Assembly (NCBI GenBank): GCA_016763665.1
Contig: JAESTI010000437.1
Location: 1-35,109, forward strand
Source of the DNA: Bacteroidia bacterium
Lineage (GTDB): Bacteria; Bacteroidota; Bacteroidia; Flavobacteriales; NORP286
Length of the DNA stretch: 35,109 nt
Reading direction: 5' to 3'
The notes beneath the pieces were generated by a model. The model was given only the letters and a program-made list of their open reading frames with translations, was not told where the DNA came from and did not search any database. Below are positions 7,390 through 32,338 of this stretch, piece by piece. How positions within the stretch are numbered: the first letter of the stretch is position 1; each line of letters starts with the position of its first letter. The position numbers and the translations under genes are program-made.

Positions 7390-10300
7390 TATAAAATACC
7401 TTCTGTTCTGGAAGTTCTATTACTCTGATTAGATTCTTCAATCAAGTCGTTAGATTTATTAACCGCATCACGTCTTTCTATATGTTCGGCGGATCTTTGT
7501 TCTGATATTAATACTGTTACTTCTGTTAACTCAACAATTTTTGCTTCAAGCTTAGTTATTTGTGCCGTGAAATCATCCAAGGGGATAATCGCTTCCGGCT
7601 GGCCACCTTCACCAATTTCAGCAATCATAGGATGGGTAACGATGCCACCATCTGCAAAACTTCGTAAAAAACCCCCGCCGCCGCGACTGCCACCACCACC
7701 ACCAGACCCAGGATTGCCTCGAAAAATAAATTCCTCTCTGCCAGTATTTACAACAATTTTAGATAACTCTGTAAAGTTGTCACCCGCCCACACAACTGAT
7801 TCGTTAACAGCGTTAACAGTTTCAGCAGTGTTAATCCCGATAGCTTTTAAAAAACTATTGATTGCGCCATTTGACGCGAATGCTGAAGTTAGTAATTCTA
7901 TTTTTGAGATAATCCCATCTGAATTGAAATCGATGGTACTAAAATCAATATCCATGTCTGGTAGAGTACTAAGGTCAATATCTATATTCAAACTATCGAC
8001 TATGCCTTGCAATAAACTTGAATTAGCAGCTTCTAAACCCGTAACGATGCCGTTAGAGTCTAAATCTATAGAGTTAACGGCAGATATTAAATCTTCAGTA
8101 TTGATATTATTTACTGCATCAATAATTCCTTGAGCATTTATATCTGGAAAATTAATCGAATCAATACCAGTTGCTATAGATTGAAATAAACCAAACAGGC
8201 CGCCCCCCGGAAGCATAGTCTGAAGAGTTAATTCTAATGGTGAAATTCTGCCATCTGCATTTGCGTCAACCAGTCTGATAATCTCTGCCGCTTGAGCCGG
8301 TAAGATACCGCTACTAATCAATTCCTGTAATGTTAAATTATTGTCAGAATTAGAATCTATCGTACTTAAAATGGTACCTAAATCAGAGATAGAACTAGTG
8401 TTTGCATTTCCAGCAACTAATAATCTGTATAAAGGTGAATCCGTATTCAATAAAGTATTTTGTATTTCTATCGCGCTAACAATGCCATCCTTGTTTAAAT
8501 CCGATGAATCTTTGATAGCGTTGACAAATGCGCCTTTAACATCTTGAAAATTGAGTCCTAAGCCGCTCAACAAAGTATCTATGTCCGTGCCAGTTGCCAG
8601 ATTCAATTCTAGTAATGACTGGACAAATAGCGCTTGATCAAACGAAGTGCGTGAAGATGATTCCTCAATTTGTTGAGCTAAGAGTGATTCTAATCTACCC
8701 GATGTTAAAGATTCGTTAGGAACATTTGGAGCACTGGAAGAATCAAACAAACTCGATACTGAATTCAAATCACTCAATACGCTTGATTTGATATCTTTAA
8801 ACGCACTGCTGGATGCGAAAAATGTTTGAGCAGATTCTAAAAATGTGCTTGAAAACGATGCGAGATCATTGGCTGCGTTTGCGTCTCCGGTATTTGCTCT
8901 CGCTAATAATTCCTCATATTTATTTTGGTTAAATTCGAATGCTTCAGAAGCCGATGCTCCTACTAGAAAAACGTCAGCGATAGATTCTTTTAATTTATCA
9001 GATGCCGCGATTGATTCTTCATATCGTTTCATCTCAATATCAAATAGATCGTTAGCGGCATCATGAATCACGGTGAGACGATCTCGTTCAGTATCGATTC
9101 GGCTTTGTAAATCACCAAACAATGAACTTGATAATATACCTAAGTCGTTTTGCAATGCGGTAGTAATAACAATAAAGTCTTCGAGTGAGCCTTGCAAACT
9201 TATCATTGACTGCGCAGCATCCGCGCCCGCTTTATCTAAGCTTAGGGTTTCATCTCCTAATTTCGATAGCACCTGATTAACAGCTTCCAGGGAACCCCCG
9301 GCCGCAAATGTTTCTATTGTTAATTGGTCAATATTATCTAAATAAGTTTTAAAATCATCCGAAGCATTTTCCATTGACAAAGCGGCTAACGATATTTGAT
9401 CAATTACACCTATGATCTCATCACCTGACTGAATGACTGATTCAGATAGGGCGTCAAAAATTTCGTCAACTTCACCACCAATCGTGTTAAATATCGTTTG
9501 AAATCTCTCGGTGATGAAATCAGTTGTATTTAATTCTTCACTGATAGTGCTTTTTTGTTTCTCGACTGCGGTTTTAATTTTACCTATTTGTGTTTCTGTT
9601 AGTGTTGAGGCGATGACGTCTTCAAGTTCTGCTATACCTTCGAAAAAATCACCAAAACTTTTGATGGCTCTATCGGATGCGCCTCTAAAGGTGTCATGTT
9701 GTGAAAGTGCTCTAATTCCGCCAAATTGTGATTCTGTTACAACGTTAAAATCATCACTGCTATGTTCGTTAAGGCTTTTCGGTAATAGATCAGTCGTTTC
9801 AACCGTTATTTTAGGATCGTGCACCCCGCCGCCAAACAATACATCAACAAAGCTCCCTATCGTCGCGCCGATGAAAGATCCTATTGGCCCTGCAAATGAT
9901 CCGGCTAATGTTCCTATTGTTTGCCCAATGGCGCTATTTGCTTGTTTTCCTGTGAGATTTTCACCAACAGCGTTGCCTAATTTACCGCCAGCGTATGACG
10001 CCCCTATTGTAGCGGCAAAGTTAACCGGGTCAAAACTAAAACCACCACTTGGATCAATCGTACTACCCTTAATCGCGTCGATCGATGCAGTGCCACCACC
10101 AGGCAACGTCGAAATCAAAGTGTCGTTAGCGATGCCTGCGAGCGCTACGTCAGCCGTTCGATTAAATACGCCGGATATTCCAAAATTCGCCAGGGTAGCA
10201 CTGGTAAAACCACCCACGCCACTTGCTGCTAATTTGGATAACCCTATTTTCGATAACCCGGCAGAAGCCAGGGCGCTAACGCCGCCTAAAAGGCCACCAC

Positions 10301-13103
10301 CCCCGGCGCCACCACCTGCCGCACTCAGTGCACCAGTGACACCACCAGACGCCCCCAATCCAAGCTGAATAAGAATGGGGTTGGTGATAGATTGATGCGC
10401 TAGTTCAGCAAGTAATTTTTTGAAAGAACCTAAAATGCTATCCGTGAAATCTTCAAAGGAATCGAAAGCCCCTTCCCATGCTTTCGCAAAAGATTCGTCT
10501 ATTCTTTCTGCTGCATCATCCCACGAATCCGCCAAGTCTTCGGCGGCATCCATCTGTTTTTTAATTTCAGGAAATAAATCAACATGTTCTTTTTTAAGTG
10601 CTAATACAGCTTGTGCATATTGGTCTGTACCATCGGTAACGCCTTTGTAATGTTCTTTTAATAACTCGAGTTCTTCGTTATATTCCTTCTGTTCTAACTT
10701 AAGAGGAAACAACGTTTCTAACAATTTTTTTGTACTTTCTGATTTTGTTTCCTCAAACTCGAACAACCTCGTTAGAAAACCTTCATAAGCTTCTAGCACT
10801 GGGAATAATTTTATATATTCTTGTTTTAACGCTTTTTGCGCAGCAATATGTTTTGATGTTCCTTCTTTGTCGAGTTTTTTAAATGTTGTATTTAAAAGAA
10901 TCAAATCTTTATTATAGTCTTTTTGTGCTTTTTCAAGTGGAAAAAGTATATCTAACAATTCTTGTTCTGCATCTTGTAACTTAACAGTTGCCTTAGTTTT
11001 ATCTTTTGTTTCGTCTTTAACCGCTTTAAGTTCTGCTTTAAGTTTGTTTAATCCCTTTGTATATTCGTCTGCTGATTTCCTGGCATTGGTGGTGGCTTCG
11101 GCACCATCAATCATTGCTTTTACGGTTGCTGTTTCTTCTTTAATGACTTTCAATAATTGCTTATCTAAAAAATCCGCTTGGGTTGCATAATCGCCGGTAG
11201 TCCCACCCAAGGTCACAGTGAAAGCGATAGTTTTTGCGATAGCGACTTTTAATTTTTCATAACCTATGATCATATTTTTAATGGCGTGAGCGGTTGTCCC
11301 TCTAACAACTTCTAAACTGTATAAATAACTACCGACTTGAAAACCAACAAACGCAGCGCTTAATACGCCAGTCGCTAGGCTTAATTTGCTAATAGCTGTA
11401 CTCGCGAGGCCGGCTTTGATTGACACGCCAAACAATGCTTGATTCCAGGGGATTGTTGAAAGTGCAAATTTAACGCCCGCTACTTGTGCAAATCCAGTAA
11501 ATAATGCTAACGTTTTCATTGCACCGGTAGCGGTTGCAACAGCGATAGGCCACGCTTTCATAATGATAGGAAAAGCTTTCAACCCTATATAAATAGCCCC
11601 ACCTGTCAATAACAAATTACCAAATAATTCTAATCCCCCAATAGTGGCTTTAATCGTTGCATCTAATTCTTTTTCATTATCAATAAATGTTGATAACGTT
11701 GTGTTAAGATCTTTAAGACTCTCTGTAAAACCATCTAAAAATTGATCGCCAAAAGCTTTACTAATCGCTGAAACATTATTACCTAACAATTTAAAAGCGG
11801 CATCAAAAGTCGCTGCGCTTGCGGCATATTCTTTCTGTAATGCGACTGCATTCGCCACTTCTTTATTGGCTAACATTTGTGTTTTGGTATATTGTTCTAA
11901 ATTAGCAGACAATGGCCCTAACGTTTTAATTATTTCTTGTCCGCCTAAGCCAACTTTTGCTAATGCGGCGCCCGCTTTTGTTTCTCCTAAATCTCTCAAT
12001 CCTTCTAACAATATTCTGAAACCTGCGATTTTATCTTCAGAAAAAGTTCTAGCCAAAACATCGCCGTCAATCTCTAAAGCTTTCGCGAATTCTTTTAATT
12101 CTTCACCACCTAATGTAACTCTATTTTGAATTTCTTGAAATGCTCTACCCACGGCAGAACCAGCAGATTCAGCCCTGGCACCCATTGCAACCATCGCAGC
12201 ACCTAATGCGGCAGAATCGGCAGCGCTAACGTTAAACAATGCAGTGCTTCTAGCGATCTCGTTAGTGATTCTGGCGATTTGTTTCTCAGTTGCTGCCACT
12301 TCATTACCCACGGCAACAATGACAGAGGCAAAAACATCAACGCTACCTATTGATTCACCGGTAACGTTTAGAATCCTTGCTAGTGTTTGCGCTGCCTCTT
12401 CGCCTTGTAAATTAGACGCCCGCCCTAATTTCGCAATAGTCTCAGTAAATTTTAAAATATCATCCGTGCCAGAGACACCTAATTGACCGGCTGATTGTGC
12501 GAGTGCTAGTAATTCCTCCGTGGTGACGGGAATAGTTCGAGATAGAATACCTATGCGCCTTTCTAATTCTTCAAGTTCCTTTCCTGTGATGCCAGTAGTT
12601 TTTGCAACGCCTACTAAACCAGTCTCGAAAGCAGATGCGTTTTGAATAGCAGATTTAAAAATTAACGCACCACTGGCAAGTGTTACAAACCCTAATAATT
12701 GAGTTTTTGCGCTACCAATAGCTTTAGATAATCTATTAAATCCTTTCGCCCCTTTTTTTGTTGTCTTATCAGTTGTCTTGCCTGTTTTTTTGATTTCCTT
12801 TTCTAATCTTTTAACTTCGTTTTTTGAATCATTAGCAGCTTCCGACATTTTCTTAAATTGTCGATCAGATGAACCAATAGCTTTTTTAAGGGTTTTTTCA
12901 GTTTCTTTAAGTCTAAATGCCAACAGTTTAACTTCGTCTTGAGAACTATTGACGGCCTTTTCCATTTTTTTAAATTGAGACGCAGCGGTTTTACCCACCT
13001 TTACAGTGGCTTTTTCAGTTTGTGATACTTCGGTCTCTAACTTCTTTAAGCTAACAAGAGATTGCGCTGTACCTATCTCAATTTTCAAATCAACTTCAGG
13101 CAT
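7389..13103 (-). CDS. Tape measure protein with EF-hand-like region
   Basis: A 1904-residue protein; ATG at 13103 behind a good ribosome binding site (AGGATGAT). The N-terminus is coiled coil with internal repeats (SQFKKMEKA / RQFKKMSEA). Next comes a typical tape-measure region (SAGQLGVSGTDDILKF, MVAMGARAESAGSAVGRAF) and hydrophobic stretches around residues 490-590. A tandem LFPL..QK.YN repeat lies at about 715-860, and Gly/Ala-rich regions follow. The end has the classical glycine-rich tail then ADGGIVTHPMIAEIGEGG. Length sets tail length; at about 1.5 Å per residue the tail could approach 280 nm. Residues 1535-1736 hold five EF-hand loops, unusual for the family. Antisense open frames within it are shadows. 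Confidence 0.92.
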   Translation of the reverse strand: MPEVDLKIEIGTAQSLVSLKKLETEVSQTEKATVKVGKTAASQFKKMEKAVNSSQDEVKLLAFRLKETEKTLKKAIGSSDRQFKKMSEAANDSKNEVKRLEKEIKKTGKTTDKTTKKGAKGFNRLSKAIGSAKTQLLGFVTLASGALIFKSAIQNASAFETGLVGVAKTTGITGKELEELERRIGILSRTIPVTTEELLALAQSAGQLGVSGTDDILKFTETIAKLGRASNLQGEEAAQTLARILNVTGESIGSVDVFASVIVAVGNEVAATEKQIARITNEIARSTALFNVSAADSAALGAAMVAMGARAESAGSAVGRAFQEIQNRVTLGGEELKEFAKALEIDGDVLARTFSEDKIAGFRILLEGLRDLGETKAGAALAKVGLGGQEIIKTLGPLSANLEQYTKTQMLANKEVANAVALQKEYAASAATFDAAFKLLGNNVSAISKAFGDQFLDGFTESLKDLNTTLSTFIDNEKELDATIKATIGGLELFGNLLLTGGAIYIGLKAFPIIMKAWPIAVATATGAMKTLALFTGFAQVAGVKFALSTIPWNQALFGVSIKAGLASTAISKLSLATGVLSAAFVGFQVGSYLYSLEVVRGTTAHAIKNMIIGYEKLKVAIAKTIAFTVTLGGTTGDYATQADFLDKQLLKVIKEETATVKAMIDGAEATTNARKSADEYTKGLNKLKAELKAVKDETKDKTKATVKLQDAEQELLDILFPLEKAQKDYNKDLILLNTTFKKLDKEGTSKHIAAQKALKQEYIKLFPVLEAYEGFLTRLFEFEETKSESTKKLLETLFPLKLEQKEYNEELELLKEHYKGVTDGTDQYAQAVLALKKEHVDLFPEIKKQMDAAEDLADSWDDAAERIDESFAKAWEGAFDSFEDFTDSILGSFKKLLAELAHQSITNPILIQLGLGASGGVTGALSAAGGGAGGGGLLGGVSALASAGLSKIGLSKLAASGVGGFTSATLANFGISGVFNRTADVALAGIANDTLISTLPGGGTASIDAIKGSTIDPSGGFSFDPVNFAATIGASYAGGKLGNAVGENLTGKQANSAIGQTIGTLAGSFAGPIGSFIGATIGSFVDVLFGGGVHDPKITVETTDLLPKSLNEHSSDDFNVVTESQFGGIRALSQHDTFRGASDRAIKSFGDFFEGIAELEDVIASTLTETQIGKIKTAVEKQKSTISEELNTTDFITERFQTIFNTIGGEVDEIFDALSESVIQSGDEIIGVIDQISLAALSMENASDDFKTYLDNIDQLTIETFAAGGSLEAVNQVLSKLGDETLSLDKAGADAAQSMISLQGSLEDFIVITTALQNDLGILSSSLFGDLQSRIDTERDRLTVIHDAANDLFDIEMKRYEESIAASDKLKESIADVFLVGASASEAFEFNQNKYEELLARANTGDANAANDLASFSSTFLESAQTFFASSSAFKDIKSSVLSDLNSVSSLFDSSSAPNVPNESLTSGRLESLLAQQIEESSSRTSFDQALFVQSLLELNLATGTDIDTLLSGLGLNFQDVKGAFVNAIKDSSDLNKDGIVSAIEIQNTLLNTDSPLYRLLVAGNANTSSISDLGTILSTIDSNSDNNLTLQELISSGILPAQAAEIIRLVDANADGRISPLELTLQTMLPGGGLFGLFQSIATGIDSINFPDINAQGIIDAVNNINTEDLISAVNSIDLDSNGIVTGLEAANSSLLQGIVDSLNIDIDLSTLPDMDIDFSTIDFNSDGIISKIELLTSAFASNGAINSFLKAIGINTAETVNAVNESVVWAGDNFTELSKIVVNTGREEFIFRGNPGSGGGGGSRGGGGFLRSFADGGIVTHPMIAEIGEGGQPEAIIPLDDFTAQITKLEAKIVELTEVTVLISEQRSAEHIERRDAVNKSNDLIEESNQSNRTSRTEGIL
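7896..8501 (-). other. Five EF-hand-type calcium-binding loops inside the tape measure gene
   Basis: Five 12-residue loops fit D-x-[DN]-x-[DN]-[GN]-x-[ILV]-x-x-x-E: DLNKDGIVSAIE (residue 1535), DSNSDNNLTLQE (1583), DANADGRISPLE (1613), DLDSNGIVTGLE (1680) and DFNSDGIISKIE (1725). All metal-ligand positions are filled. Helical sequence separates the loops. Calcium binding is inferred from the pattern. Confidence 0.8.
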
Positions 13104-13994: not shown

Positions 13995-15170
13995 TTACTT
14001 ATCGATTAAGTTCATACCGACTGTGAAGCCGAGAACCGGGTCTAGTAGCGCCTCATAAGATCCGTCAATCATGAAAAATGAATCCTTACCTTGAATAGGT
14101 GTTTCTAAGGATGTAAATTTCACGTTAGGGAGATAGGCAACAATTGCATTACCATCCTCGTCGGTCAACTTAAATGACAGAGAAAATGACGTATTGTTAT
14201 TAAACAATGTGTAAGCAGCAATATCTTCAAAATATAAAGTAACATCACCAGTTACACTTAAATCAAACGCCGCTAAAGCCGCTGCTCCTAATACACCAAT
14301 AACTTTCGCTGCACTTATCTTGTTGTCGTAATTAAAACTGACAGATTCAATCTGAACGTCAGCTTGTAACCCGGTTGTAGAAAATGCTAACGATTCCACA
14401 GAATTTAAAAGACTGTAACCATCGACAACCGCTACAGTCGTTTGACCTGTTATCATGGTTTCCGTGACGTCTTCAGTTAATCCCAGAATGCCTATACTAC
14501 CGTTTAACAGACTACCGGCGCCGAAAGACCATGATAAAGTATTCATCATGCAACCGCGATAATACATAAACGCTTTTGTTGCCAAAGCAACTTCTTTTTT
14601 AATCGTATAACTATCAGGTAACTCTGTTCCGTTAGGTGTATGTCCCCACGACACTTTGATATTATCGCCCGCCGCTGCGGTCGTTAGACCTCCAGCATCT
14701 TGAGCATCCAAGGTTAATACTAAAGCCGCAACTGCCGAGACTAAAAACAATCCATTGTTATTTGCTAATGCCGCGCCAGATATCAAAACGTATGAACCCA
14801 CGGGAATTGCAGCAAAATTAGCAAGGAGAGCAGACGTAAAAGTTCTGGCAGTTGCATCAATCGCGATATCTGCTTTAGTTTCTGTCCCTGTAACGGTCAC
14901 ACCTTCCATAACCGACTTTATTAAGGGTTTATAGGCATCATATGAAACCTCATGAGGCAGGTCACCGGTCACGCTTTGATCCACGACGATTAGGTCGGGT
15001 TTCTGGCGATCTGTCCTGATAGCTTCTGACGATGCGGTTACTTTGCCGCCTACAGGGCCACCACCCGTGACAGGGAGACGTTGAAAGGCCGGACTAGCAG
15101 GCGTTTGACCTGGCGTAGTTTCCAGAATGTAACTTAAGTCTATTTTTGACGTGCTGATTATTTCAGGCAT
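13995..15170 (-). CDS. Major tail tube protein
   Basis: A 391-residue protein with ATG at 15170 behind AAAGGAA. The N-terminus (STSKIDLSYILETTPGQTP) and the beta-rich body with alternating G, T, S and hydrophobic residues resemble siphovirus tail tube subunits of the tail_tube_2 type. It lies between the tail terminator and chaperone genes, the expected slot. Residues about 95-180 look like an inserted Ig-like or beta domain (TARTFTSALLANFAAIPVG, DAQDAGGLTTAAAGD), which may be exposed on the tail surface. It is followed by a strong hairpin, in keeping with high expression. Confidence 0.8.
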   Translation of the reverse strand: MPEIISTSKIDLSYILETTPGQTPASPAFQRLPVTGGGPVGGKVTASSEAIRTDRQKPDLIVVDQSVTGDLPHEVSYDAYKPLIKSVMEGVTVTGTETKADIAIDATARTFTSALLANFAAIPVGSYVLISGAALANNNGLFLVSAVAALVLTLDAQDAGGLTTAAAGDNIKVSWGHTPNGTELPDSYTIKKEVALATKAFMYYRGCMMNTLSWSFGAGSLLNGSIGILGLTEDVTETMITGQTTVAVVDGYSLLNSVESLAFSTTGLQADVQIESVSFNYDNKISAAKVIGVLGAAALAAFDLSVTGDVTLYFEDIAAYTLFNNNTSFSLSFKLTDEDGNAIVAYLPNVKFTSLETPIQGKDSFFMIDGSYEALLDPVLGFTVGMNLIDK

Positions 15171-15189: not shown

Positions 15190-16227
15190 TTATCTAACGG
15201 TTTTAAATGGTATGAACACGTTTACATTAAAAAAACCATGATCATCATCACTTACCTTTCTTGGCACTATCACTTCAGCCATAACACCATCAAAAGTTTT
15301 GTTTTGGAAAAGAGCGATTAAATCCTTATTTATCAATCCTATTTTCTCCACTCCTTTTCCTAATTCTGTAAACACGGAGATAACGAAAAAACCTTCATGT
15401 TTTATATATCCTGCCGCTACTGCTGCACCTATTACGCCATTCTCCGAACTTGTTATATTTAGTTGTGTTCTTAACCAGAACGCATCTGTTTTGTTTGGTG
15501 TGTTTTCCCAAGTTACTTTTAGTCCTGTCAGATCGTCGTAAAATATCTGAGGAATAACGATTGCGGCATTATTTTTTAAAGTCCAAATTTCTCCAGTGTT
15601 TTTACTTGTTAAAGTCGTTCCTGTTCTGTAATCGTTTGCGTCAAATTCGACTGCGAGAAAATCAGACGACAATAAACCATTATAAATTTGAACAAGTTTT
15701 ATAAATCCATCAACTAACGATCCTATTTTAATTTCAGAGTTAGAAATAAAAATTCTGTCTATGTTTATAGATTTATCAGTACCTAACGGCGAATAACTTA
15801 TATTGTCGTCAGATAAAGAAAACTTGACAATTTTTGTCGTTTTTTCCCATGTAATATTTATATATTTATATGTGCCATTTACTAATCCCGTTGGGATACT
15901 ACTGGCGACAGACAACCCGGCTCCGCCATCGGCACTTAAGTATAATTTAATCGTACCGTCCGCCGCAATCGTTACCTTATAAGAATTATTTCCGCTAGAC
16001 CATTTCTCAATTAAAACAACCTCTATTCCAGGCACCCAATTTGACAACTTGATATACAGTGTTAAATTGATATTGCCTGTAATGCTGGCTTCTATACTAT
16101 GCGGTGAACTTAAATGCGAACTTAATTCACCTGGCAAAATTAGAAATTGAGTTTGCATAGACGTGACAAATTCCACGGCAGTTTTTAACCGTGTTTCAAA
16201 AGCTGCTCTAATTTCTGATTCGATCAT
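15190..16227 (-). CDS. Tail terminator protein split by a LamG-like domain
   Basis: A 345-residue protein. Residues 1-22 (MIESEIRAAFETRLKTAVEF) and 232-345 (LTGLKVTWENTPNKTDAFWL to the end) together resemble the DUF4128-type tail terminator, normally about 130 residues. Between them lies a LamG/concanavalin-A-like sandwich (about 27-225), with typical strands (YKVTIAADGTIKLYLSADGG, YKYINITWEK) and ending (FDANDYRTGTTLTSKNTGE, IWTLKN). The terminator caps the tail tube and joins it to the neck; the insert would protrude from the neck as a ligand-binding domain. ATGA overlap with the upstream gene indicates coupling. Confidence 0.7.
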   Translation of the reverse strand: MIESEIRAAFETRLKTAVEFVTSMQTQFLILPGELSSHLSSPHSIEASITGNINLTLYIKLSNWVPGIEVVLIEKWSSGNNSYKVTIAADGTIKLYLSADGGAGLSVASSIPTGLVNGTYKYINITWEKTTKIVKFSLSDDNISYSPLGTDKSINIDRIFISNSEIKIGSLVDGFIKLVQIYNGLLSSDFLAVEFDANDYRTGTTLTSKNTGEIWTLKNNAAIVIPQIFYDDLTGLKVTWENTPNKTDAFWLRTQLNITSSENGVIGAAVAAGYIKHEGFFVISVFTELGKGVEKIGLINKDLIALFQNKTFDGVMAEVIVPRKVSDDDHGFFNVNVFIPFKTVR

Positions 16228-16577
16228 CGACCGGCCTTTTTCATTGCGCGTTGTATTTCTTTCTCGACAAAAAATTCACCCGCTTGTTCTGAATGTCCTT
16301 CGTTTAATGGAACGATATAAGGTAAATTGTTTGTGATAAAATAACTTTCACCCAATCTCGCTAATCCCACTTTTGGTTTTTTCATTTTTACCGATTTAGC
16401 CGCAGGTTCAACAGACGAATCTATCTCACCTTTTGTAATTCGCCAAGACGCCCTCGCTCTACCTGTATCGACGGGAGTCGCAGTGGTCAACCCGGTATAA
16501 ATATCTATGACAAATTCCCGCTGCTCTTTTGCAACCATTGTTCTAAGTTGTGCAAATGCAACTGATATAGCACTCAT
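16224..16577 (-). CDS. Tail completion/neck protein, HK97 gp10-like
   Basis: A 117-residue basic protein. The stretch TPVDTGRARASWRI is the hallmark of HK97 gp10-type/minor tail Z proteins, followed by a Lys-rich segment and the characteristic ITNNLPYIVPLNEGHS and a C-terminal helix. These proteins act at the head-tail joint or in tail completion. It overlaps its neighbours on both sides by about 4 bp, consistent with an uninterrupted neck operon. Confidence 0.8.
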   Translation of the reverse strand: MSAISVAFAQLRTMVAKEQREFVIDIYTGLTTATPVDTGRARASWRITKGEIDSSVEPAAKSVKMKKPKVGLARLGESYFITNNLPYIVPLNEGHSEQAGEFFVEKEIQRAMKKAGR

Positions 16578-16840
16578 GGCAAAGGTTCATACTCTTCAGG
16601 TGCGACATAATCAGGATTCATATTCGGTTCCCACCAATCAACCCCCATGATCGCATCTACCGCAGTTCTACATTCGGCTTCCGAATCAAAATTAGTAATA
16701 TCATTACCCGAACCTGAGCTTTGCCCCACTTCAACAATGTTAACATTGATAAAAGCACCTGTTTTCTTATTTATAATTATTTGCCAAACTTTAGTTGGCG
16801 AGTCTTTTATCTCGTTAGGTATAATTATTTCTTCTATCAT
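16574..16840 (-). CDS. Hypothetical neck-operon protein, 88 aa
   Basis: The start is placed at ATG 16840, which overlaps the TGA of the giant neck gene (ATGA) and follows GGTGGA; a GTG ten codons upstream is less likely. The product is acidic, beta-like at the N-terminus (KVWQIIINKKTGAFINVNIVE) and ends in a Pro/Glu-rich tail (YVAPEEYEPLP). Unrecognised. The location between head-closure and tail-completion genes suggests a small virion or assembly protein. Confidence 0.7.
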   Translation of the reverse strand: MIEEIIIPNEIKDSPTKVWQIIINKKTGAFINVNIVEVGQSSGSGNDITNFDSEAECRTAVDAIMGVDWWEPNMNPDYVAPEEYEPLP

Positions 16841-19800
16841 GCTGCGATTCCACCATCGGTTATTGTCCACAGGTCGTTAGTGACCATATTGGCGCGAGCC
16901 GTTGCCGCAACGCCCCCGCCAGTGTATTTAGAATTACCTGCATCAAATACGACATTAGGTTGTAAAATTTGTCCGTCCCAATCAATCAACACGGCGTCGT
17001 AGTTTGCAGTTGATAAAGTAACGCCGGCCATCATTGTTGACATAGTGGTTACGCTTGATACGTTCCAATCTGATATATCTTGATTGAATGCAGAGCAACC
17101 TTGTAACATTGCTGACATATTAGTTACGGAACCAGTCACCCAAGTATTTAATGGCTGATTAAACACTAAGCAATTTAAAAATAAACCCTTTAGTACAGTT
17201 GTAGAAGATGTATCCCACCCTGATAACGGACTATTAAACACCCAACAACTTTGAAACATTGATTCAAAACTAATAACATTTGAAACATTCCAATCTGAGA
17301 TATTTGGAATAGTTGTTATAGAATTACAACTAACAAACATTGATGATAAATCAATTGATGAAATCACAGGAATATCAGTAGCTGTAATCGTTAAATTTGA
17401 ACACCCCCAAAAGTTACGATTACTAACGACATCATACGGCCCCCATCTAGTTATAACATCAATCTCTGTATTGCTGGCAAAACGCATATTCAACGCACCC
17501 ATCTTGCCTCGGATCACTATGTTAAAAGTGCCAGCAGTGACATAGAGATGGTTTAACGCTGCGTCGTTGTAGACTGTAATATCGTTATCGCTTCCATCGC
17601 CCCAATCGATATTAAAATCTACTGCGCTATTTGCAAAATTAAGTAAAACCGATTGGTTATCCGTGGTTGTTGTCCAAGTACTATCGAAGCTTGTTAGGCC
17701 GCCATCGGTTATTGTCCATCCATCCGCAGCGATCATATTCGCCCTGGCGTTTCCGGCTGCTATCGATGAGTATTTAGAATTGCCAAAATGGACAACAACG
17801 TTAGGTTGTAAAACTTGAGCATCCCAAGCCACTAACATATTGTCATAGTTCTGTATTGACAGTGTTCCGTATAAGAACATTGTCGAAGCGGCAGTTACTT
17901 GGGACATATCCCAAGCGCTTAAGTCTTGATCAAATAACAAGGCATTTCTAAACATTGACGTCATGTTGACATTAGTCAATGCATTAATTGCCCATCCACT
18001 TATATCTTGATTGAATACAGAAGCTTTCCGTAAAAACTCTGTGAAGTCAGTAACTTTACTTACATTCCACGTTGTTATATTTCCATCAAAAACTGAACAG
18101 CTTTCAAACATACTGTTCATGGTAGTAACGTTTGTTGTAATCCAGCTGTTTAAGTCTTGATTAAAAGATACGCATGACTGGAACATAGCAGAGAATGTTG
18201 TTGCCAACCCTACATTCCAACTATTCAATGGTTGATTGAAAGCAGAACAAAATGTAAACAGATTATGAAATACAGTAACTGAACTAACGTTCCAACTATT
18301 GAGCGGTTGGTCGAATACTGTACACCCACTGAACATAAAACCTATATCGGTTAAAGCAGTTGTAGTCCAAGTAAGAGGTTGATTATAAGCAGAACAATTC
18401 TGTAACATAGAATTCATCGTCGTAACAGCGCTAACAACCCAGCTACTGATATCTTGATTGAATACTAGGCAATCTCTGAACATACTAGACATGTTAGTCA
18501 CGAGTCCAGTATTCCATAGGTTTAGGGGTTTGTTAAACGCAGTACATTGTTTGAATGTAGCTGCCATGTTGGTTACTAGGGAGGTATTGAAATTATTTAC
18601 GTCTTGATTAAAGACAGTACAATTAAAAAACATATTATTAATGTCAGTAACCGATGTAGTAACCCAAGTATTCAAAGGTTGATTGAACGCTACACATCCG
18701 AAAAACATACTATTCATTAATGTTACAGCGCTGACATTCCACGAATTAATATCTTGATTGAAAACTTGACAGTTTTTAAAGGTGGTTGACATATCAATTA
18801 CGGCGCTAACATCCCACAAATTCAAAGGTTGGTTGAAAGCTATACAATCATTGAACATCAAGGGTATGGCAGTTACCGAACTGACAACCCAACTATTTAG
18901 CGGTTGGTTGAAGACAGTACACCCGGTAAACATTCTGTTCATGGTAGTTACTGAACTAACATTCCACGAATTAATATCTTGATTAAACGCAAAACAATTA
19001 AAGAACACATATGACATGTTAGTTACAGAAATTGTATTCCATGAATTAAGAGATTGATTAAATACAAGGCAGCCATTAAATGCAGATTGTAAAGAAGTCA
19101 CTAAAGAGATATCCCAAGTGTCTATATTGGGAACGTCTGTCAAAGCTGAACAAGAACTGAATATTGCAAAAAAGCTGGTAGTACCAATTGTAGGCGTATC
19201 AGTTGCGCTTATTATTAAAGCATTACATCCGTTAAACCAATTATCTGAAAGTAATTCTAACGAGCCCCATTTTCCTATATGAGAGAACTTAGTTTTATCT
19301 CCCGTATTACCGAAGACTATTCCTTTAAACACTCCATTGATCAGGATGACATGATCACCGGCAACTGCGTATATATGTGACAAGGCAGCATCGTTGTAGG
19401 TGGTAATTGGTGCGCTTACAGTTCCATCGCCCCAATCGATGGTGAAATTTAAACCGGTAGCTGAGCTATGCAGTGGGAACGTTACTGATTCAGATGCTGT
19501 GGTTGTTGTGAAGGTTGATATAAATAAATCATTGAGGTCTTCGCCCCCGTCCGTTATTGTCCAAGTGTCATTAGATATTAAACTAGCTCGAGCAATCACG
19601 GCAGCGCTGGCTGCATACTTAGAAAGACCGCCGTTAAAAACTAAACTAGGTTGTAAAGTTTGAGAATCTAACGATAGTAATAATGCATCGTAGTTTTGAA
19701 TGGACAAAGTAACGTTCTTAAGGAAGTCGCCAATATTTGTTACAGAACTGAAATTCCAATTGCTCAAGTCTTGATTAAATAAAGTACAATCTCTAAATGC

Positions 19801-22626
19801 CGAACCTATAAGAGTAACGTTAGAAACATCCCAACTTCCGACTGGTTGATTAAATACAGAACATGAGATGAAAATACTATCAATATTTGTAATGGCAGAA
19901 GTAACATTCCAGACCCCGATTGGCTGATTAAACAGCGAACATGAATTAAACATCGAGTTCATAGCTGTAACTAACGAAACATTCCAGCCTGATATATCTT
20001 GGTTGAAAACTGAACATCCACTTAACATTGACTGTAGATCTGTCGCAGCAGTAGTAACCCAGCTAGTAATATTGCCATCGAAAGCGGCACAATTTTGGAA
20101 CATTTGTTTGAATGAAATAACTAAACTAACATTCCAACTATTAAGACTCTGATTAAAAACAGTACACCCGCTGAACATCTCTTGCATATTGCTAGCTATC
20201 AAACTTACATTCCAGCCGTCAATATTCTGGTTGAATGCAGCACACCCTCTGAACATTCTTAATACTTCTGTTAGAGAAGTTGTCACCCAACTTGTAACGT
20301 CGCCATTGAATGCCGAACAACCATCAAACATGCTTGTCATATTGGTAACGGCACTGACATTCCAGAGATTTAGTGGTTGATTAAACGAATTGCTACCGGC
20401 GAACATACTTTGCATGGTAGTAACTAAAGTTACTATCCAACTATTCAACGGTTGGTTGAATAAAATACAACCATTGAACATAGAATTCATCGCATTTACA
20501 GCGCTAACATTCCAACTATTGAGCGGCTGGTTAAATTTGAAGCAATTACTAAAAAGATTGCTAAGCGTAGTAGCAGAACCTATATTCCAAGCATCAATAT
20601 TGTGATTAAAATTTGAACAAGATGAAAAAGTAAAATGTAAGAGAGTTATATGTGCGACGTTCCACGTTTCCAGATTAGGGATAGTGTCTATTAAGGTACA
20701 ATCTCTAAAAGCAGAGTACATAGTTGTCGTTAGACTAATATCAGGTATATCAGTAGCTGAAATCTTTAAATTTGAACAGCCATAGAACCAAGCATTGTTC
20801 AATAAAGCCAATTCTCCCCAACGACCTATATGAGAAAATTTTGTTTTATCACCAACGTTATTAAAACGTAGTCCTTTAATTGTTCCGTCGATCAAGATTA
20901 CATGATCGCCCGCTACAGCGTATGTATGAGATAACGCTGCATCGTTATAGGTTGTTATAGGAGCTGATATGGTTCCGTCTCCCCAATCGATTGTGAAATT
21001 TAACCCGGTCGCTGAACTATCTAATGGAAAAGTTACAGACTCGCTTGCCGTCGTTGTTGTGAAGGTAGATATAAATAGATCGTTTGTGTCTTCCCCACCG
21101 TCCGTTATCGTCCAGCCATTAGTAATTAAAGCAGCTCTACCAATGACTGCTTTAGATTGGGCGTAAATAGAATTGCCACCACCAAATATAACGTTGGGTT
21201 GGGTTGCTTGTTTACTCCAACTATCTAACAAGGCGTCGTAGTTGGGGATTGACAATGCATTTTGATTGAACATAATTTGCATATCAACGACTGACGATAT
21301 ATCCCAGTCGCTAATATCTCGATCAAATATAGTTGCGCCATCAAACATAAATTGCATATTAGTGACAGAACTAGTGTTCAAAAGATTGAGCGGCTGATTG
21401 AACGCTACGGCATCCCTGAACATATACTGGATTTGTGTTAATGCAGTTGTAGTCCAGTTCCCTATTGGCTGATTAAATACAGTACAACCGTTGAACATAA
21501 AAGACATGTCAGTTACGGAACTAGTGATCCAGCTCGTGATATCACCATTGAAAACTAGTGCGCGGTTGAACATTGCTGACATGTTAGTCGCATTAACAGT
21601 GTTCCAACTGTTTAAATCTTGATTAAAAACAGCGCAAAGTTCAAATATATTATTCATCAATGAAACAGCGCCGACATTCCAGTTATCTAAAGATTGATCG
21701 AACGCCAGGCAATTGTTAAACATAAAAGCCATGTTAGTTACAAGAGCAGTGTTCCAAAGATTGAGTGGTTGATTGAACACTTGGCAATTGTTAAGCATGC
21801 CTTGCATATTTGTTACAGCATTTGTATTCCAACTATTCAGAGGTTGGTTGAAAACTAAACAACTTCTGAGCATGTTATCCATTCGAGTAACTGCACTGAC
21901 AACCCAACTATCGAGCGGCTGGTTGAAAGTAGAGCAACCATCAAAAAGCTGGTTCATAACATTTACAGAACTGACATTCCAACTTCCGATCGCTTGGTTA
22001 AATACAGATGCTCCATTGAACATTAACGACATATCTGTGACACTAATCGTATTCCATGATGTAATATTGCCATCAAATAAAGGGCAACTTCTAAAAGTAT
22101 TACTCATCGAAGTTACTAGCCCGGTATTCCACGAATTTAAATCTTGATTAAAAACTGCGCAGTTATAAAATGTTTCAAAAAGACTAGTTACAGCGCTTAT
22201 ATTCCAAGTATCCATATTTGGTATAGTGGTTACTGAATTACAATCTTTAAATGCGCTTTGCATATTTGTAACAGCAGTAATATCAGGAATATCCATTGCT
22301 GTAATTGTTAGATTGGTACAACCATAAAACCAGGAATCAGAAAGTAGCTTTAATGGCCCCCACGTTTTAATCACGTTAATTTTTGTTTTATCACCAACGT
22401 TGTTAAATCTGAAACCTTCGATAGTTCCTATAATATTAACATCGTAAACGCCCGCATTCGCATAAACATGGCTCGCGTTTGCATCGTCCCAGGCGTTGAT
22501 CGCTTGTAATGCAGTGCCGTCTCCCCAATCAACAAACGCGCTATATACCCCCGTGCTCATTAACGGCAGGGTGATAGATTCGCTTGACGTCGTAGTAGTC
22601 CATGATGCCAAAAAATGCTCAATCGG
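16837..22626 (-). repeat. DUF285/BspA-type repeat array, four modules
   Basis: Protein-level tandem repeats of 25 residues (75 bp) are grouped in four modules of about 14, 14, 18 and 5 units. Each unit has a conserved Trp at the end, a central MF or LF, a Cys and an FNQ turn. Module boundaries fall near 21098, 19545 and 17700. At DNA level the units are well diverged. Confidence 0.85.
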
Positions 22627-23664
22627 CGTATACGAAGCGCTGACGATGGTTGAATAGTTAGGAATCTCATCAAAAGCAAAGATCGAATAAAAATATTCGA
22701 CATCGTTTGTCAAACCTGCATCGATTACAGAAGTATCCGTACCTGTATAAACGAAATCGCCAGCCGTAGGTGTTGCCGGAGCGCTTACCGTGTCTCGACG
22801 AATTGTTACGCCTGCGAAATCTGAATCAGTAGGGTTGACCCACGAAAGCGAAAGTTCGTTAGAAAATTGAGAAACAATGGCGAAATTAGTGGGTGAACTA
22901 GGTGCCGTAACATCTGCCGGAATAGTCGAATCTTGCGCCGCTAATGAATAGTTAGGTACTGAATCATAAGCGAAAATCGAATAAAAATGCTCGATATCGT
23001 TGGTTAAATTGATATCTGTAAAAGCAGTTTCATCACCGCCGTTGTAAACCAGGGTGCCGTCATTTCTATCTATTGGAAATGATCCAATTTTGTGAAGGAT
23101 GATCACACCTTCAAAATCTGAATCAGTGGGATTAACCCAGCTCATTAGTGCTTGTTCATCACCAGAAGCCGCGACAAAGCTGGTCACAACGCCAGGGGAA
23201 ACGATATCAGGTGCTACTGGCGCTATTACGGAATCTTGAACCTCTTTGATCAGTAATTTAAACGTCGCCCCTACCGCGTCAGCAGAAGCCTTAGTGATCT
23301 CGTAAACAGTGCCACTTATATCAACGTAATATTTTAAACTATCCATTTCAAAACTAGGCGCCCCCAATTCTGAATCTAAAACTAATAATTCTTGAACTTT
23401 GTAATTGTAATTTATGGCATCCGCTTCATTGTCTTTTTCTTTGTCTGTTAGAACGCCTCGACAAGTACCTAAAGTTTGTACGACGCCACTAATGTTGGTT
23501 GTGAAATAATTTTTTGTGCCTTGAACCACACCAGAAGTATTTGCGTTATATCCTGCCGAATCATCGCGCGAATAAATTTTAAATGTAGAAATCGCGCCCA
23601 CCAAGTCATCGTCAAATGCTTCCTGAATATCTTGGGTGATTTCTTGATATAACGTTAACGGCAT
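16837..23664 (-). CDS. Giant head-closure protein with FN3 and BspA/DUF285 repeat modules
   Basis: A 2275-residue protein in the slot normally held by a ~120-residue head-closure protein. Residues 1-150 look like such a connector (QEITQDIQEAFDDDLVGAI; DISGTVYEITKASADAVGA). Two fibronectin-III-like domains follow (about 155-245, 250-345), each with SWVNPTDSDF and YFYSIFA. Then come four modules (about 346-855, 856-1373, 1373-1988, 1988-2275), each opening with a PKD-like strand set (VDWGDGT or IDWGDGT), running through 25-residue repeats of the type NVSSVTxMxxMFxxCxxFNQPLNSW, and closing with WTITDGG. About 50 repeats in all. DUF285/BspA repeats are known from bacterial surface adhesins. It likely forms whiskers at the neck. 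Confidence 0.75.
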   Translation of the reverse strand: MPLTLYQEITQDIQEAFDDDLVGAISTFKIYSRDDSAGYNANTSGVVQGTKNYFTTNISGVVQTLGTCRGVLTDKEKDNEADAINYNYKVQELLVLDSELGAPSFEMDSLKYYVDISGTVYEITKASADAVGATFKLLIKEVQDSVIAPVAPDIVSPGVVTSFVAASGDEQALMSWVNPTDSDFEGVIILHKIGSFPIDRNDGTLVYNGGDETAFTDINLTNDIEHFYSIFAYDSVPNYSLAAQDSTIPADVTAPSSPTNFAIVSQFSNELSLSWVNPTDSDFAGVTIRRDTVSAPATPTAGDFVYTGTDTSVIDAGLTNDVEYFYSIFAFDEIPNYSTIVSASYTPIEHFLASWTTTTSSESITLPLMSTGVYSAFVDWGDGTALQAINAWDDANASHVYANAGVYDVNIIGTIEGFRFNNVGDKTKINVIKTWGPLKLLSDSWFYGCTNLTITAMDIPDITAVTNMQSAFKDCNSVTTIPNMDTWNISAVTSLFETFYNCAVFNQDLNSWNTGLVTSMSNTFRSCPLFDGNITSWNTISVTDMSLMFNGASVFNQAIGSWNVSSVNVMNQLFDGCSTFNQPLDSWVVSAVTRMDNMLRSCLVFNQPLNSWNTNAVTNMQGMLNNCQVFNQPLNLWNTALVTNMAFMFNNCLAFDQSLDNWNVGAVSLMNNIFELCAVFNQDLNSWNTVNATNMSAMFNRALVFNGDITSWITSSVTDMSFMFNGCTVFNQPIGNWTTTALTQIQYMFRDAVAFNQPLNLLNTSSVTNMQFMFDGATIFDRDISDWDISSVVDMQIMFNQNALSIPNYDALLDSWSKQATQPNVIFGGGNSIYAQSKAVIGRAALITNGWTITDGGEDTNDLFISTFTTTTASESVTFPLDSSATGLNFTIDWGDGTISAPITTYNDAALSHTYAVAGDHVILIDGTIKGLRFNNVGDKTKFSHIGRWGELALLNNAWFYGCSNLKISATDIPDISLTTTMYSAFRDCTLIDTIPNLETWNVAHITLLHFTFSSCSNFNHNIDAWNIGSATTLSNLFSNCFKFNQPLNSWNVSAVNAMNSMFNGCILFNQPLNSWIVTLVTTMQSMFAGSNSFNQPLNLWNVSAVTNMTSMFDGCSAFNGDVTSWVTTSLTEVLRMFRGCAAFNQNIDGWNVSLIASNMQEMFSGCTVFNQSLNSWNVSLVISFKQMFQNCAAFDGNITSWVTTAATDLQSMLSGCSVFNQDISGWNVSLVTAMNSMFNSCSLFNQPIGVWNVTSAITNIDSIFISCSVFNQPVGSWDVSNVTLIGSAFRDCTLFNQDLSNWNFSSVTNIGDFLKNVTLSIQNYDALLLSLDSQTLQPSLVFNGGLSKYAASAAVIARASLISNDTWTITDGGEDLNDLFISTFTTTTASESVTFPLHSSATGLNFTIDWGDGTVSAPITTYNDAALSHIYAVAGDHVILINGVFKGIVFGNTGDKTKFSHIGKWGSLELLSDNWFNGCNALIISATDTPTIGTTSFFAIFSSCSALTDVPNIDTWDISLVTSLQSAFNGCLVFNQSLNSWNTISVTNMSYVFFNCFAFNQDINSWNVSSVTTMNRMFTGCTVFNQPLNSWVVSSVTAIPLMFNDCIAFNQPLNLWDVSAVIDMSTTFKNCQVFNQDINSWNVSAVTLMNSMFFGCVAFNQPLNTWVTTSVTDINNMFFNCTVFNQDVNNFNTSLVTNMAATFKQCTAFNKPLNLWNTGLVTNMSSMFRDCLVFNQDISSWVVSAVTTMNSMLQNCSAYNQPLTWTTTALTDIGFMFSGCTVFDQPLNSWNVSSVTVFHNLFTFCSAFNQPLNSWNVGLATTFSAMFQSCVSFNQDLNSWITTNVTTMNSMFESCSVFDGNITTWNVSKVTDFTEFLRKASVFNQDISGWAINALTNVNMTSMFRNALLFDQDLSAWDMSQVTAASTMFLYGTLSIQNYDNMLVAWDAQVLQPNVVVHFGNSKYSSIAAGNARANMIAADGWTITDGGLTSFDSTWTTTTDNQSVLLNFANSAVDFNIDWGDGSDNDITVYNDAALNHLYVTAGTFNIVIRGKMGALNMRFASNTEIDVITRWGPYDVVSNRNFWGCSNLTITATDIPVISSIDLSSMFVSCNSITTIPNISDWNVSNVISFESMFQSCWVFNSPLSGWDTSSTTVLKGLFLNCLVFNQPLNTWVTGSVTNMSAMLQGCSAFNQDISDWNVSSVTTMSTMMAGVTLSTANYDAVLIDWDGQILQPNVVFDAGNSKYTGGGVAATARANMVTNDLWTITDGGIAA

Positions 23665-23668
23665 TTTA

Positions 23669-24103
23669 TTAAGCTCTTAAAACGTTAGAAGTTTTTGGGC
23701 TAGTGCTCGAGTTTAAAACGCAGTATGGAGAGAGCATCGAAGTCACGGCCGGATAAGGATCGATCACGGAAGTCACGTTATCCGCGCGTGCGAATTTGCG
23801 CCTTGTTGTGATACCTGCTTTTATTGTCTTCTCTAAAATATTTGTTTCGGGCTCATTAAAAAGCGAACCTTTCAAATGCTCAATAGCCAAAATACTATTC
23901 GCCATTTGAATCTCAGATGGTGCGTCGTCTTCGTCTACAGCAGAGAAAAAAGTATATTTCGAATCGATAAAAGAACGCGCATGACTTAACGCGTTCCCCT
24001 TAGTAGTATCATTTCCTGCGTCCCAAGTTGCGTCGCCTGTGTTTACAGTTTCGGCATTAGCTAACGTAACATAGGTAACAGGTAACTTAGGCAGGTTAGG
24101 CAT
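23669..24103 (-). CDS. Head-tail adaptor protein (gp6-like / DnaT_2-like)
   Basis: A 144-residue protein, helix-rich, ending 4 bp before the giant neck gene. The pattern YVTLANAETVNT..ATWDAG and later ALSHARSFIDSKY, MANSILAIEHLKGSLF and ITTRRKFARADNVTS fits the connector family that phage annotations call gp6-like or DnaT-like. In known phages it binds the portal ring and receives the head-closure protein. The position between coat and closure genes fits. The label DnaT-like reflects family naming and does not imply ssDNA binding here. Confidence 0.7.
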   Translation of the reverse strand: MPNLPKLPVTYVTLANAETVNTGDATWDAGNDTTKGNALSHARSFIDSKYTFFSAVDEDDAPSEIQMANSILAIEHLKGSLFNEPETNILEKTIKAGITTRRKFARADNVTSVIDPYPAVTSMLSPYCVLNSSTSPKTSNVLRA

Positions 24104-24590: not shown

Positions 24591-25739
24591 TTAAACGTCG
24601 TCAGATAACAACGTAATTCTGCGGGGTTCATAACAAGCAGCCCCCACTAAAACATCCATTGACATGGTTGTCTTTTTATCGGTCATGTTATAACCGCGAA
24701 CAACACGGATACTCACACCACCCGCCGAAAGTACAGAGGCGACTTGATCACCCGGTAAATCCAGAATCGGGAATGCTACCGCCAACGATTTATCATCGAA
24801 AATCGCACCACGTTTCACATAAGCTAAACCTGAACCAATCACACTAATGGCCGTCGCATCAGGGATTATTTCCGTGATGGGGTCAACTAAAGGAATAGAG
24901 GTTGCAAGGGCCGCTACATTGGACGCGACTACTATAGGGCGTTTGACGCCTGCTATTTTCAAATGATCGCCCGCCGTCAATCCGCCAACAACTGCGGTAG
25001 TGATTAGCGTCTTCTCGCCCACCAAATTACCTGCACCGTTGTTTGTAACGCCTGTACCAGAACTATAAGTACCCGAAGCGGCAGCATCAGTTGAAGGGAA
25101 ATTGACAGAACTAAAAAAGTCCATTCCCATCACCGATCCCATTTGGCCAGTACGCAAAGTTGTTTCACCGTCAGCGCCGCGAGTTTGGCTTTGGTTAAAC
25201 CAATCCTTACCCAATAGTTTGGCTTCCAAGGTATCGTCAACCAGGCAGAATCGATTGCCAGGGTTCAGTTGTTGGAGTAATGCGGCCTGTCTGGCCAGCG
25301 CAACATCGGCAGAAGTTTCAAGCAATACCGCAGAATGATACAAACCATGAGCATCTAGTATTTTTGATGCCGTGTAGATTTCCACTTTTTCAGCGAGACG
25401 AATGGCTGAAGGTGCGATTACTTCGTTGATAAAACCCTCAAAATCAAGGGCCATTTCTTTTGACGTCAATTCAACAGATATGTCAAAATGCTTCTCGATC
25501 TTCATATTTCGACTGGATGAACGCACGGATTGAATAGAAATGGAACCAGCGAATTCTTTCGCTTCGTAATCAGGGCCAGTTTTGATGCGGATGGTATCGC
25601 CTTTCGCATAACCGTCAGGTACAGTGTTCCAATCAGATGATTTATCCATTGAAACCAGGGGGGCGATAATGAGATTATCAGACATTACTGAAAGCGCTTC
25701 GGCAGCGATCCAATCTATTTCTTCGAAAGCATTTGGCAT
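24591..25739 (-). CDS. Major capsid (coat) protein, P22 gp5-like
   Basis: A 382-residue protein. The N-terminal pattern (MPNAFEEIDWIAAEALSVM, NTVPDGYAKGDTIRIK, FDISVELTSKEMALDF) and later YTASKILDAHG and LAYVKRGAIFDDKSLAVAF fit the P22 coat protein family, which has an HK97 core fold with an extra insertion domain (P22 gp5 is 430 residues). It builds the icosahedral shell around the scaffold. A long, structured leader precedes it and an inverted repeat follows, consistent with its own high-level expression unit. Confidence 0.85.
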   Translation of the reverse strand: MPNAFEEIDWIAAEALSVMSDNLIIAPLVSMDKSSDWNTVPDGYAKGDTIRIKTGPDYEAKEFAGSISIQSVRSSSRNMKIEKHFDISVELTSKEMALDFEGFINEVIAPSAIRLAEKVEIYTASKILDAHGLYHSAVLLETSADVALARQAALLQQLNPGNRFCLVDDTLEAKLLGKDWFNQSQTRGADGETTLRTGQMGSVMGMDFFSSVNFPSTDAAASGTYSSGTGVTNNGAGNLVGEKTLITTAVVGGLTAGDHLKIAGVKRPIVVASNVAALATSIPLVDPITEIIPDATAISVIGSGLAYVKRGAIFDDKSLAVAFPILDLPGDQVASVLSAGGVSIRVVRGYNMTDKKTTMSMDVLVGAACYEPRRITLLSDDV

Positions 25740-31933: not shown

Positions 31934-32338
31934 TTAAATAATAAGATTTAGCCTAGAAGTGGCACCATAGTCAGAATGTTGGTAAACCGGCGAATTAAAG
32001 AAATAATCTTCAGATCGCCAAGTTTTCGCACCATAGTCAGGATGTTTGCATGATATTCGATTATCCATGACTTCGGGCGAAACGTTTCGATTCGCTCCAT
32101 AATCAACATGTTTGTAAACAATAATATTATCTATGTAATCAAAACTGTCTGAGTTTTGCGCGCCATAATCAGGATGACCGATATGGGCAACGCCATCATC
32201 AAACACGACCACAATTGTGATGTCTTCAGTATCAACCACGTCGCTCGTTAGATAGACGCAATCTGAACCCCACAAAGTACACGCACTGACCAGTGGTGCC
32301 GTGAACGTGAGAATGATGATTAAAAGAACTCTCATCAT
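31934..32338 (-). CDS. Lipoprotein with 22-residue HxDYGA repeats
   Basis: A 134-residue protein with a signal peptide and lipobox: MMRVLLIIILTF then APLVSAC, cleavage expected before Cys20. Four HxDYGA motifs begin at residues 55, 77, 99 and 121, an exact 22-residue period, with consensus HPDYGA...DY.DN..VYK. The ATG at 32338 follows a GGGAG ribosome binding site, and a terminator (31876-31895) lies after it, so it is a stand-alone unit. Phage lipoproteins often block superinfection or are accessory lysis factors; neither is shown here. The repeat may be a beta-type binding surface in the periplasm or on the cell surface. Function unknown. Confidence 0.75.
   Translation of the reverse strand: MMRVLLIIILTFTAPLVSACTLWGSDCVYLTSDVVDTEDITIVVVFDDGVAHIGHPDYGAQNSDSFDYIDNIIVYKHVDYGANRNVSPEVMDNRISCKHPDYGAKTWRSEDYFFNSPVYQHSDYGATSRLNLII

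Follow-up and report, generated by a model that had tools for sequence, protein, structure and literature searches.

The fusion gene and its integrity

The window analysed here, a stretch of 35,109 nucleotides (contig JAESTI010000437.1 of assembly GCA_016763665.1, assigned to a Bacteroidia bacterium), carries head, neck and tail genes of an uncultured tailed phage, and the subject of this study is one of these. It is an open reading frame (ORF) on the minus strand that runs from 23664 to 16837, starts with ATG and comprises 2275 codons without an internal stop; the predicted product has a mass of 249 kDa and a pI of 4.05. Judged from its sequence, it is a gene for a head-closure protein (stopper, Hc1) with an in-frame C-terminal extension of about 2130 residues. 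A first-pass annotation, made from the sequence without database searches, had described a 2275-residue protein with a connector head and a repeat extension at this locus, and such a protein is indeed encoded by a single intact ORF on the minus strand. Its parts are as follows.

16837..23664, minus strand: whole gene, Hc1-FN3-FN3-(PKD-DUF285)x4, 2275 residues
23236..23664, minus strand: head-closure (Hc1/stopper) domain, residues 1-143, assigned by hidden Markov model (HMM), AlphaFold model and fold matches
22630..23217, minus strand: two FN3-like domains, residues 150-345, assigned by a weak Pfam match and alignments to long proteins
21094..22629, minus strand: module 1, residues 346-857, PKD-like unit, 14 DUF285 repeats (461-801), WTITDGG cap
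19543..21093, minus strand: module 2, residues 858-1374, PKD-like unit, 14 repeats (975-1311), cap
17698..19542, minus strand: module 3, residues 1375-1989, PKD-like unit, 17 repeats (1513-1930), cap
16837..17697, minus strand: module 4, residues 1990-2275, PKD-like unit, 5 repeats (2104-2213), cap, stop codon

The database gene call for this locus (P0005) starts at an internal TTG at residue 100 (window position 23367), and most of the connector head is therefore hidden in the database annotation. A second assembly, the virus record G001, covers residues 1-2267 with 99.87% identity over 16.8 kb, and within the fusion gene it differs from the window by a single codon (N956S). Another contig, L067, is 99.94% identical to the window and contains the 3' end of the fusion gene together with the genes for Ne1 and the tail terminator. 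It should be noted that both contigs stem from the same metagenome (id 3300029925); they therefore amount to a close strain assembled a second time and not to a distant confirmation. The G+C content at third codon positions (GC3) of the repeat array is 0.351, and seven other phage genes span 0.27-0.41.

The N-terminal domain is a predicted stopper

An Hc1 profile built from 48 stand-alone Hc1 relatives, which were recruited without the window sequence, matched residues 4-140 of the fusion protein with an E-value of 7e-19, covering positions 2-119 of the 120 profile positions. When residues 1-150 were shuffled (n=2000), a five-sequence profile listed one shuffled sequence (E 0.0025), whereas the larger profile listed no shuffled sequence at E-values up to 10, which shows that the Hc1 match is not due to chance. 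The homology of the head begins at the ATG and is aligned with the starts of the stand-alone Hc1 proteins. An AlphaFold model of residues 1-150 (predicted local distance difference test score, pLDDT, 73; predicted TM-score, pTM, 0.68) shows an N-terminal helix at residues 5-20 followed by β-strands; the predicted fold has the N-terminal helix plus antiparallel barrel of stoppers, and a fold search with this model matched lambda FII, SPP1 gp16 and other solved stoppers. The view that the first ~150 residues form a connector was thus upheld by profile and model alike, and the outcome that had been named as speaking against it, an N-terminal region of 150 residues lacking a connector fold, did not occur. 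By homology and predicted fold, residues 1-143 are a usual stopper subunit. The fusion resembles the Hc1/stopper family phrog_161 (lambda gpFII, SPP1 gp16, phage 812 gp97) in gene slot, in full-length profile match and in predicted fold. No second match to the Hc1 profile was found in any other frame of the window or of the early region, in a genome that may be incomplete.

The extension consists of FN3-like domains and four PKD-DUF285 modules

Pfam searches with the fusion protein yielded DUF285 (PF03382) with 1170 bits in 14 stretches (cut-off 25) and PKD_4 with 35 bits (cut-off 27), where the first of the four PKD-like units alone passes; fn3 scored 15.3 bits, under its cut-off of 25. Residues 1-345 matched 81 long proteins among 7991 scored candidates (one of the 81 being the window's own record) with up to 51% identity, and the best of these alignments span about residues 153 to 344. 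Since PF00041 (FN3) is present somewhere in 60 of these 81 proteins, the FN3 identity of residues 150-345 is supported. The four PKD-like units can be aligned with one another and have a D-W-G-D-G motif in common. All four modules are built alike: the PKD-like unit leads into an array whose repeats are 25 residues long, and a cap with WTITDGG at its end closes the module. A self-built HMM gave 51 repeat matches, and after removal of one spurious 7-residue match the count is 50 (14, 14, 17 and 5 per module), two of which are weak and located at array starts. The proposed division into two FN3-like domains and four PKD-like/DUF285 modules is therefore borne out by Pfam, the repeat HMM and the alignments, as is the assignment of about 50 repeats to PF03382.

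The repeats had also been called 'BspA-type'. The BspA-type Pfam family is LRR_5 (PF13306), and a Pfam listing at E-values up to 0.1 contains DUF285, PKD_4 and fn3 only, with LRR_5 absent. Besides PF03382, NCBIfam TIGR02167 (PARCEL repeats) scored above its cut-off (213.7 bits, cut-off 30), so that the repeats are best assigned to the DUF285/TIGR02167 family. The PARCEL definition includes dyad symmetry in the coding DNA (PMC2996958). The coding DNA contains 7 inverted 10-mers within 200 nucleotides, compared to a mean of 8.6 (standard deviation 3.6) in 100 synonymous shuffles, 67 of which reach 7, in a test that is simpler than the MEME search of PMC2996958. By this simple test, the palindromic feature of PARCEL was therefore not seen in the DNA, which has no excess of dyads; palindromic spreading of the PARCEL type had been considered as the origin of the array. 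In the predicted structure of module 1, the array forms a regular solenoid of short strands with block pLDDT values of 65-94, mostly above 80.

The fusion gene occupies the head-closure slot

The gene order was assigned by PHROGs and Pfam, with the scaffold-like ORF called from its size and position alone. In the direction of transcription, the genes for the large terminase, portal, a Mu-F-like protein, the scaffold-like ORF, a P22-type capsid protein and the head-tail adaptor Ad1 precede the fusion gene, which is followed by ORF98 and the genes for Ne1, the tail terminator, the tail tube, the tail assembly chaperone and the tape measure; after the tape measure there are two genes of families without a named function and then an endolysin gene. 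The neighbours considered here are listed below.

24591..25739, minus strand: major capsid protein (phrog_283), query for finding relatives
23669..24103, minus strand: head-tail adaptor Ad1 (phrog_477/493), upstream gene, 4 nucleotides between the Ad1 stop and the fusion ATG
16574..16870, minus strand: ORF98, no confident family in Pfam or PHROGs
16224..16577, minus strand: Ne1/tail completion protein (phrog_169), assigned by PHROGs
15190..16227, minus strand: tail terminator Tc1 (phrog_179, PF13554) with LamG/ConA-like insert, assigned by Pfam and PHROGs
13995..15170, minus strand: tail tube protein (PF18906; phrog_290), query for finding relatives

Because this order places the fusion gene between Ad1 upstream and Ne1 and the tail terminator downstream, it sits in the Hc1 slot, as had been proposed, with ORF98 intervening before Ne1. 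ORF98 was absent between Hc1 and Ne1 in all 62 relatives in which both genes were placed (gaps of -56 to +2 nucleotides), and it was possibly gained together with the extension.

The tail terminator is also enlarged, comprising 345 residues versus a median of 135 for the 54 distinct complete proteins found with its profile, a set that includes the copy of the same phage on L067. About 200 extra residues follow the first helix and give a LamG/ConA-like match (E 0.003) below the cut-off. This LamG-like insert suggests that the whole neck is decorated for binding.

Within the present data the fusion is confined to one phage

One alignment (A3) varied too much to be used for scanning, and relatives were therefore found through the capsid and tail-tube proteins. 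Among them, an earlier Hc profile, whose seeds included the head of the fusion protein, matched 76 ORFs. Four matches cut by contig ends were dropped (two of them being the same phage's contig fetched twice), and the remaining 72 reduce to 55 distinct complete proteins of 118-146 residues (median 124), which have at most 20 residues beyond the aligned domain. With 2275 residues, the fusion protein lies far outside this usual size of stand-alone Hc1 proteins, a size that is typical but not functionally defining.

Searches for other long proteins with this head were negative, the one hit among 560 candidates being the window's own record. A pattern scan of viral contigs with residues 1-150 gave one hit among 16 candidate stretches, which was the near-identical contig of the same phage, and a search of the protein database by size class gave none among 67 candidates. 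There were no matches to sequences in the PDB, either with residues 1-150 as a single sequence or with the whole fusion protein; a profile of residues 1-150 listed one TATA-box-binding protein at an E-value of 0.55, which we took as chance. The DNA of the fusion gene had no match in 50,697 phage records. As the relatives are short and no other long protein with this head was found, the extension is, as far as these data go, particular to this phage. The searches did not point to a host: the tail tube protein gave four weak loci among 202 candidate stretches of genome contigs (a Micavibrio metagenome-assembled genome (MAG), Dyadobacter, a Clostridia MAG and Chenggangzhangella), and Pfam provided no host clue in the 10 scanned of the 16 ORFs of at least 120 residues in the early region (L189).

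PKD-DUF285 modules occur widely in viral contigs

When viral contigs were scanned with the four modules, 469 of 600 candidate stretches encoded a relative. The best 80 of these 469, which correspond to 77 distinct loci, contain 127 ORFs with four or more repeats, and the WTITDGG motif is present in 93 of them. Many of the 127 ORFs are near-duplicates (68 are distinct by their first 120 residues) and 15 lack their N-terminus. None of the 127 matched the Hc, Ad1, Ne1, Tc1, tail tube or capsid profiles of this clade, although connectors of other families would escape such a search. Eight long N-terminal parts were scanned, and six of these had no family of named function. The N-terminal part from locus L128 matched Hoc-like head decoration, tail and other structural families, and that from L186 gave a tail-sheath match at 28 bits as well as a match to a family without a named function. 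Among the annotated phage records, 111 of 50,697 had a DUF285 match; 66 of these records belong to phages of Synechococcus, Prevotella or Aeromonas. Within the matches listed, the respective genes are mostly annotated as hypothetical, as BspA-like or as 26-residue-repeat surface protein, or they are unannotated. PKD-DUF285 modules are thus widespread in viral contigs, in ORFs without matches to the neck profiles of this clade, which indicates that they are a common viral part for which the stopper is an unusual anchor.

A possible role at the neck

We consider it rather probable that the fusion protein forms six flexible whiskers of ~250 kDa each, which are anchored at the neck through the stopper and most likely bind the host surface or a matrix. 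The stopper ring would lie between the adaptor, above it, and the tail terminator, beneath it, as in long-tailed phages with solved necks. Six copies are expected because the stoppers of long-tailed phages are hexamers (PMC12886913). The extension would run outwards, since the termini of the phage 812 stopper touch decoration proteins on the outer surface (PMC12886913) and since a folded extension of 2100 residues is unlikely to fit into the channel. The FN3 pair would act as a spacer, followed by the four PKD-led DUF285 solenoid rods, so that six acidic, flexible arms with ~300 repeats altogether would project from the neck, each with a contour of roughly 45-50 nm by our estimate (taking each repeat as ~0.5 nm and each Ig-like domain as 4 nm). 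Such arms would bind the host surface or the surrounding matrix weakly with high avidity, and the particle would thereby stay close to the cell as the tail tip searches for its receptor; the binding role is suggested by analogy with the lactococcal neck structures described below. More tentatively, and with somewhat more doubt than trust, we propose that in this siphophage the neck, with its stopper whiskers of ~300 repeats and the lectin-like insert of the terminator, makes the first reversible contact instead of the tail tip.

Several observations weigh against this view. The location at the neck is deduced from homology. A direct PHROGs scan of the whole fusion protein returned no connector family, phrog_161 included, and 11 of the 65 slots examined in relatives have no Hc1 profile match; the slot protein of one of these 11, on L035, matches phrog_161. 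The array model matched solved leucine-rich repeat structures weakly, with TLR2 and TLR9 in the top rows (best E 0.014, TM 0.24), and the fusion protein contains no known ligand-binding motif that points to a target. Moreover, the fusion was seen in one phage only and could be a recent oddity.

The extension might alternatively reside at the neck in a structural capacity, where it would brace or wrap the neck or a capsid vertex, or hold tail fibres as the T4 whiskers do. The neck decoration proteins of phage 812 are thought to reinforce the neck (PMC12886913), and T4 whiskers serve tail-fibre assembly and infection control (PMC10491603). However, fifty repeats in four PKD-led rods in our judgement resemble display arms more than braces, and the same module is common in viral ORFs that have no recognised neck domain of this clade. 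We therefore regard a structural role as unlikely. It is less likely still that the protein is processed, or started internally at the TTG of residue 100, so that the virion would carry few or no repeats and these would act elsewhere, for example when released upon lysis. The database gene call does begin at this residue, but such a start would delete the greater part of the stopper domain, and the phage would then lack an Hc1 protein, as no other frame of the window or of the early region of this possibly incomplete genome matches; moreover, the head homology begins at the ATG, where the stand-alone proteins start as well.

Two further explanations were rejected. That the protein is a tail-tip or side-fibre adhesin merely located in the head-tail gene region would agree with the PKD-DUF285 proteins of other viral contigs, whose N-termini do not match the neck profiles of this clade; it is very improbable, because within the window the Hc1 profile matches nothing but the N-terminus of the fusion, and this N-terminus agrees with stoppers in both family and fold. 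A chimeric contig, in which a DUF285 gene was joined artificially to an Hc1 gene, appears to us the least credible of all. Repeats often break assemblies, and the G001 contig stops at residue 2267 of the fusion gene, but this contig runs across the junctions of Hc1, FN3 and array with the sequence seen in the window, the 3' end is linked to Ne1 on L067, and the GC3 of the array lies within the range of the other phage genes.

Stoppers are compact channel-gating ring proteins. If stopper-anchored whiskers do exist, the stopper ring tolerates a very large outward cargo of 2100 residues and can serve for the covalent, six-fold display of adhesins. Host-range and matrix-binding modules could then be sought in connector proteins, and the database start at residue 100 illustrates how such connector heads can be overlooked.

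Relation to known neck structures

Neck collars and whiskers have been described (PMC10491603, PMC11821841, PMC4493119). The whiskers of T4 (wac), the collar spikes of XM1 and the whiskers of Sf14 are likewise neck appendages, but they are separate, attached proteins (PMC10491603, PMC11821841). Another likeness is to the neck passage structure (NPS) of lactococcal phages (TP901-1 and the 936 group), which has neck fibres with terminal surface-binding modules (PMC6669499). The modules of neck passage proteins are swapped by domain shuffling (PMC10684548), and one carbohydrate-binding module of the lactococcal neck structure bound host cells, albeit weakly (PMC6669499). In contrast to the present fusion, where the arm is part of the stopper itself within one ORF, the lactococcal NPS is encoded by a separate gene; the protein has ~500-900 residues in 936 phages and a BppU-like N-terminus. 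It has been proposed to form an 18-mer collar with trimeric coiled-coil fibres and is non-essential in TP901-1. The stopper of phage 812 has one external β-sandwich domain (PMC12886913) instead of a multi-rod extension. The adaptor of Roseophage R4C is also a neck-ring protein with an extra peripheral Ig-like domain; it is, however, not a stopper, and its single domain touches the capsid and forms no outward rod (PMC10276861). Proteins with the same DUF285/TIGR02167 repeat family occur in jumbo phages, for example ORF 200 of Vibrio phage pir03 (PMC7765460).

Neck appendages with binding modules and one-domain outer additions to the stopper or adaptor are thus already known from published work. 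None of the open-licence papers listed in our searches describes a giant adhesin as part of a stopper or head-closure protein, and the words 'stopper' and 'head closure' are absent from the main text of PMC13243795. Arms at the neck have rarely been described. The first-pass annotation had known of no description of the arrangement, which accords with our searches as regards the fusion to the stopper but does not hold for neck appendages with binding modules, given the lactococcal examples. Its overall interpretation was partly supported, namely with respect to a head-closure domain in the right slot that is fused to FN3, PKD and ~50 DUF285 units, whereas the 'BspA-type' label needs care.

Other observations on neck and tail proteins

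Additions to neck and tail proteins were also observed among the relatives. On L035 (12757-13518), the tail terminator has a different N-terminal addition of 141 residues, which has no Pfam match. The 326-residue tail terminator of L105/L106 was rejected as an extended form; the extra stretch lies across Ad1 in a different reading frame, and we interpret it as an artefact of the ORF start. Ne1 proteins of 465 residues (L036, 1739-3136) and 214 residues (L012, 12009-12653) have 344 and 91 residues, respectively, ahead of the Ne1 domain. The tail tube proteins of L065 (5103-6611) and L066 (7292-8800) comprise 502 residues; close to its C-terminus, that of L065 weakly matches the bacterial Ig-like family Big_5, with a score below the cut-off.

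In the tape measure protein of the window (7389-13103), the last third contains matches to EF-hand-like calcium loops; EF-hand_5 reaches an E-value of 8.4e-8, with residues 1609-1625 as the best stretch. In the early region of G001 (L189), the ORFs at 6868-7551 and 4126-4629 include a RyR-domain match below the cut-off and a DUF1643 protein. By eye, a small ORF of the window (31934-32338) has an N-terminus resembling that of lipoproteins and contains a 'DYGA' motif in four spaced copies. Lastly, three tandem ORFs of 128-149 residues that look alike by eye lie between the capsid and Ad1 genes on L024 (6784-7939), and the same is seen on L038.
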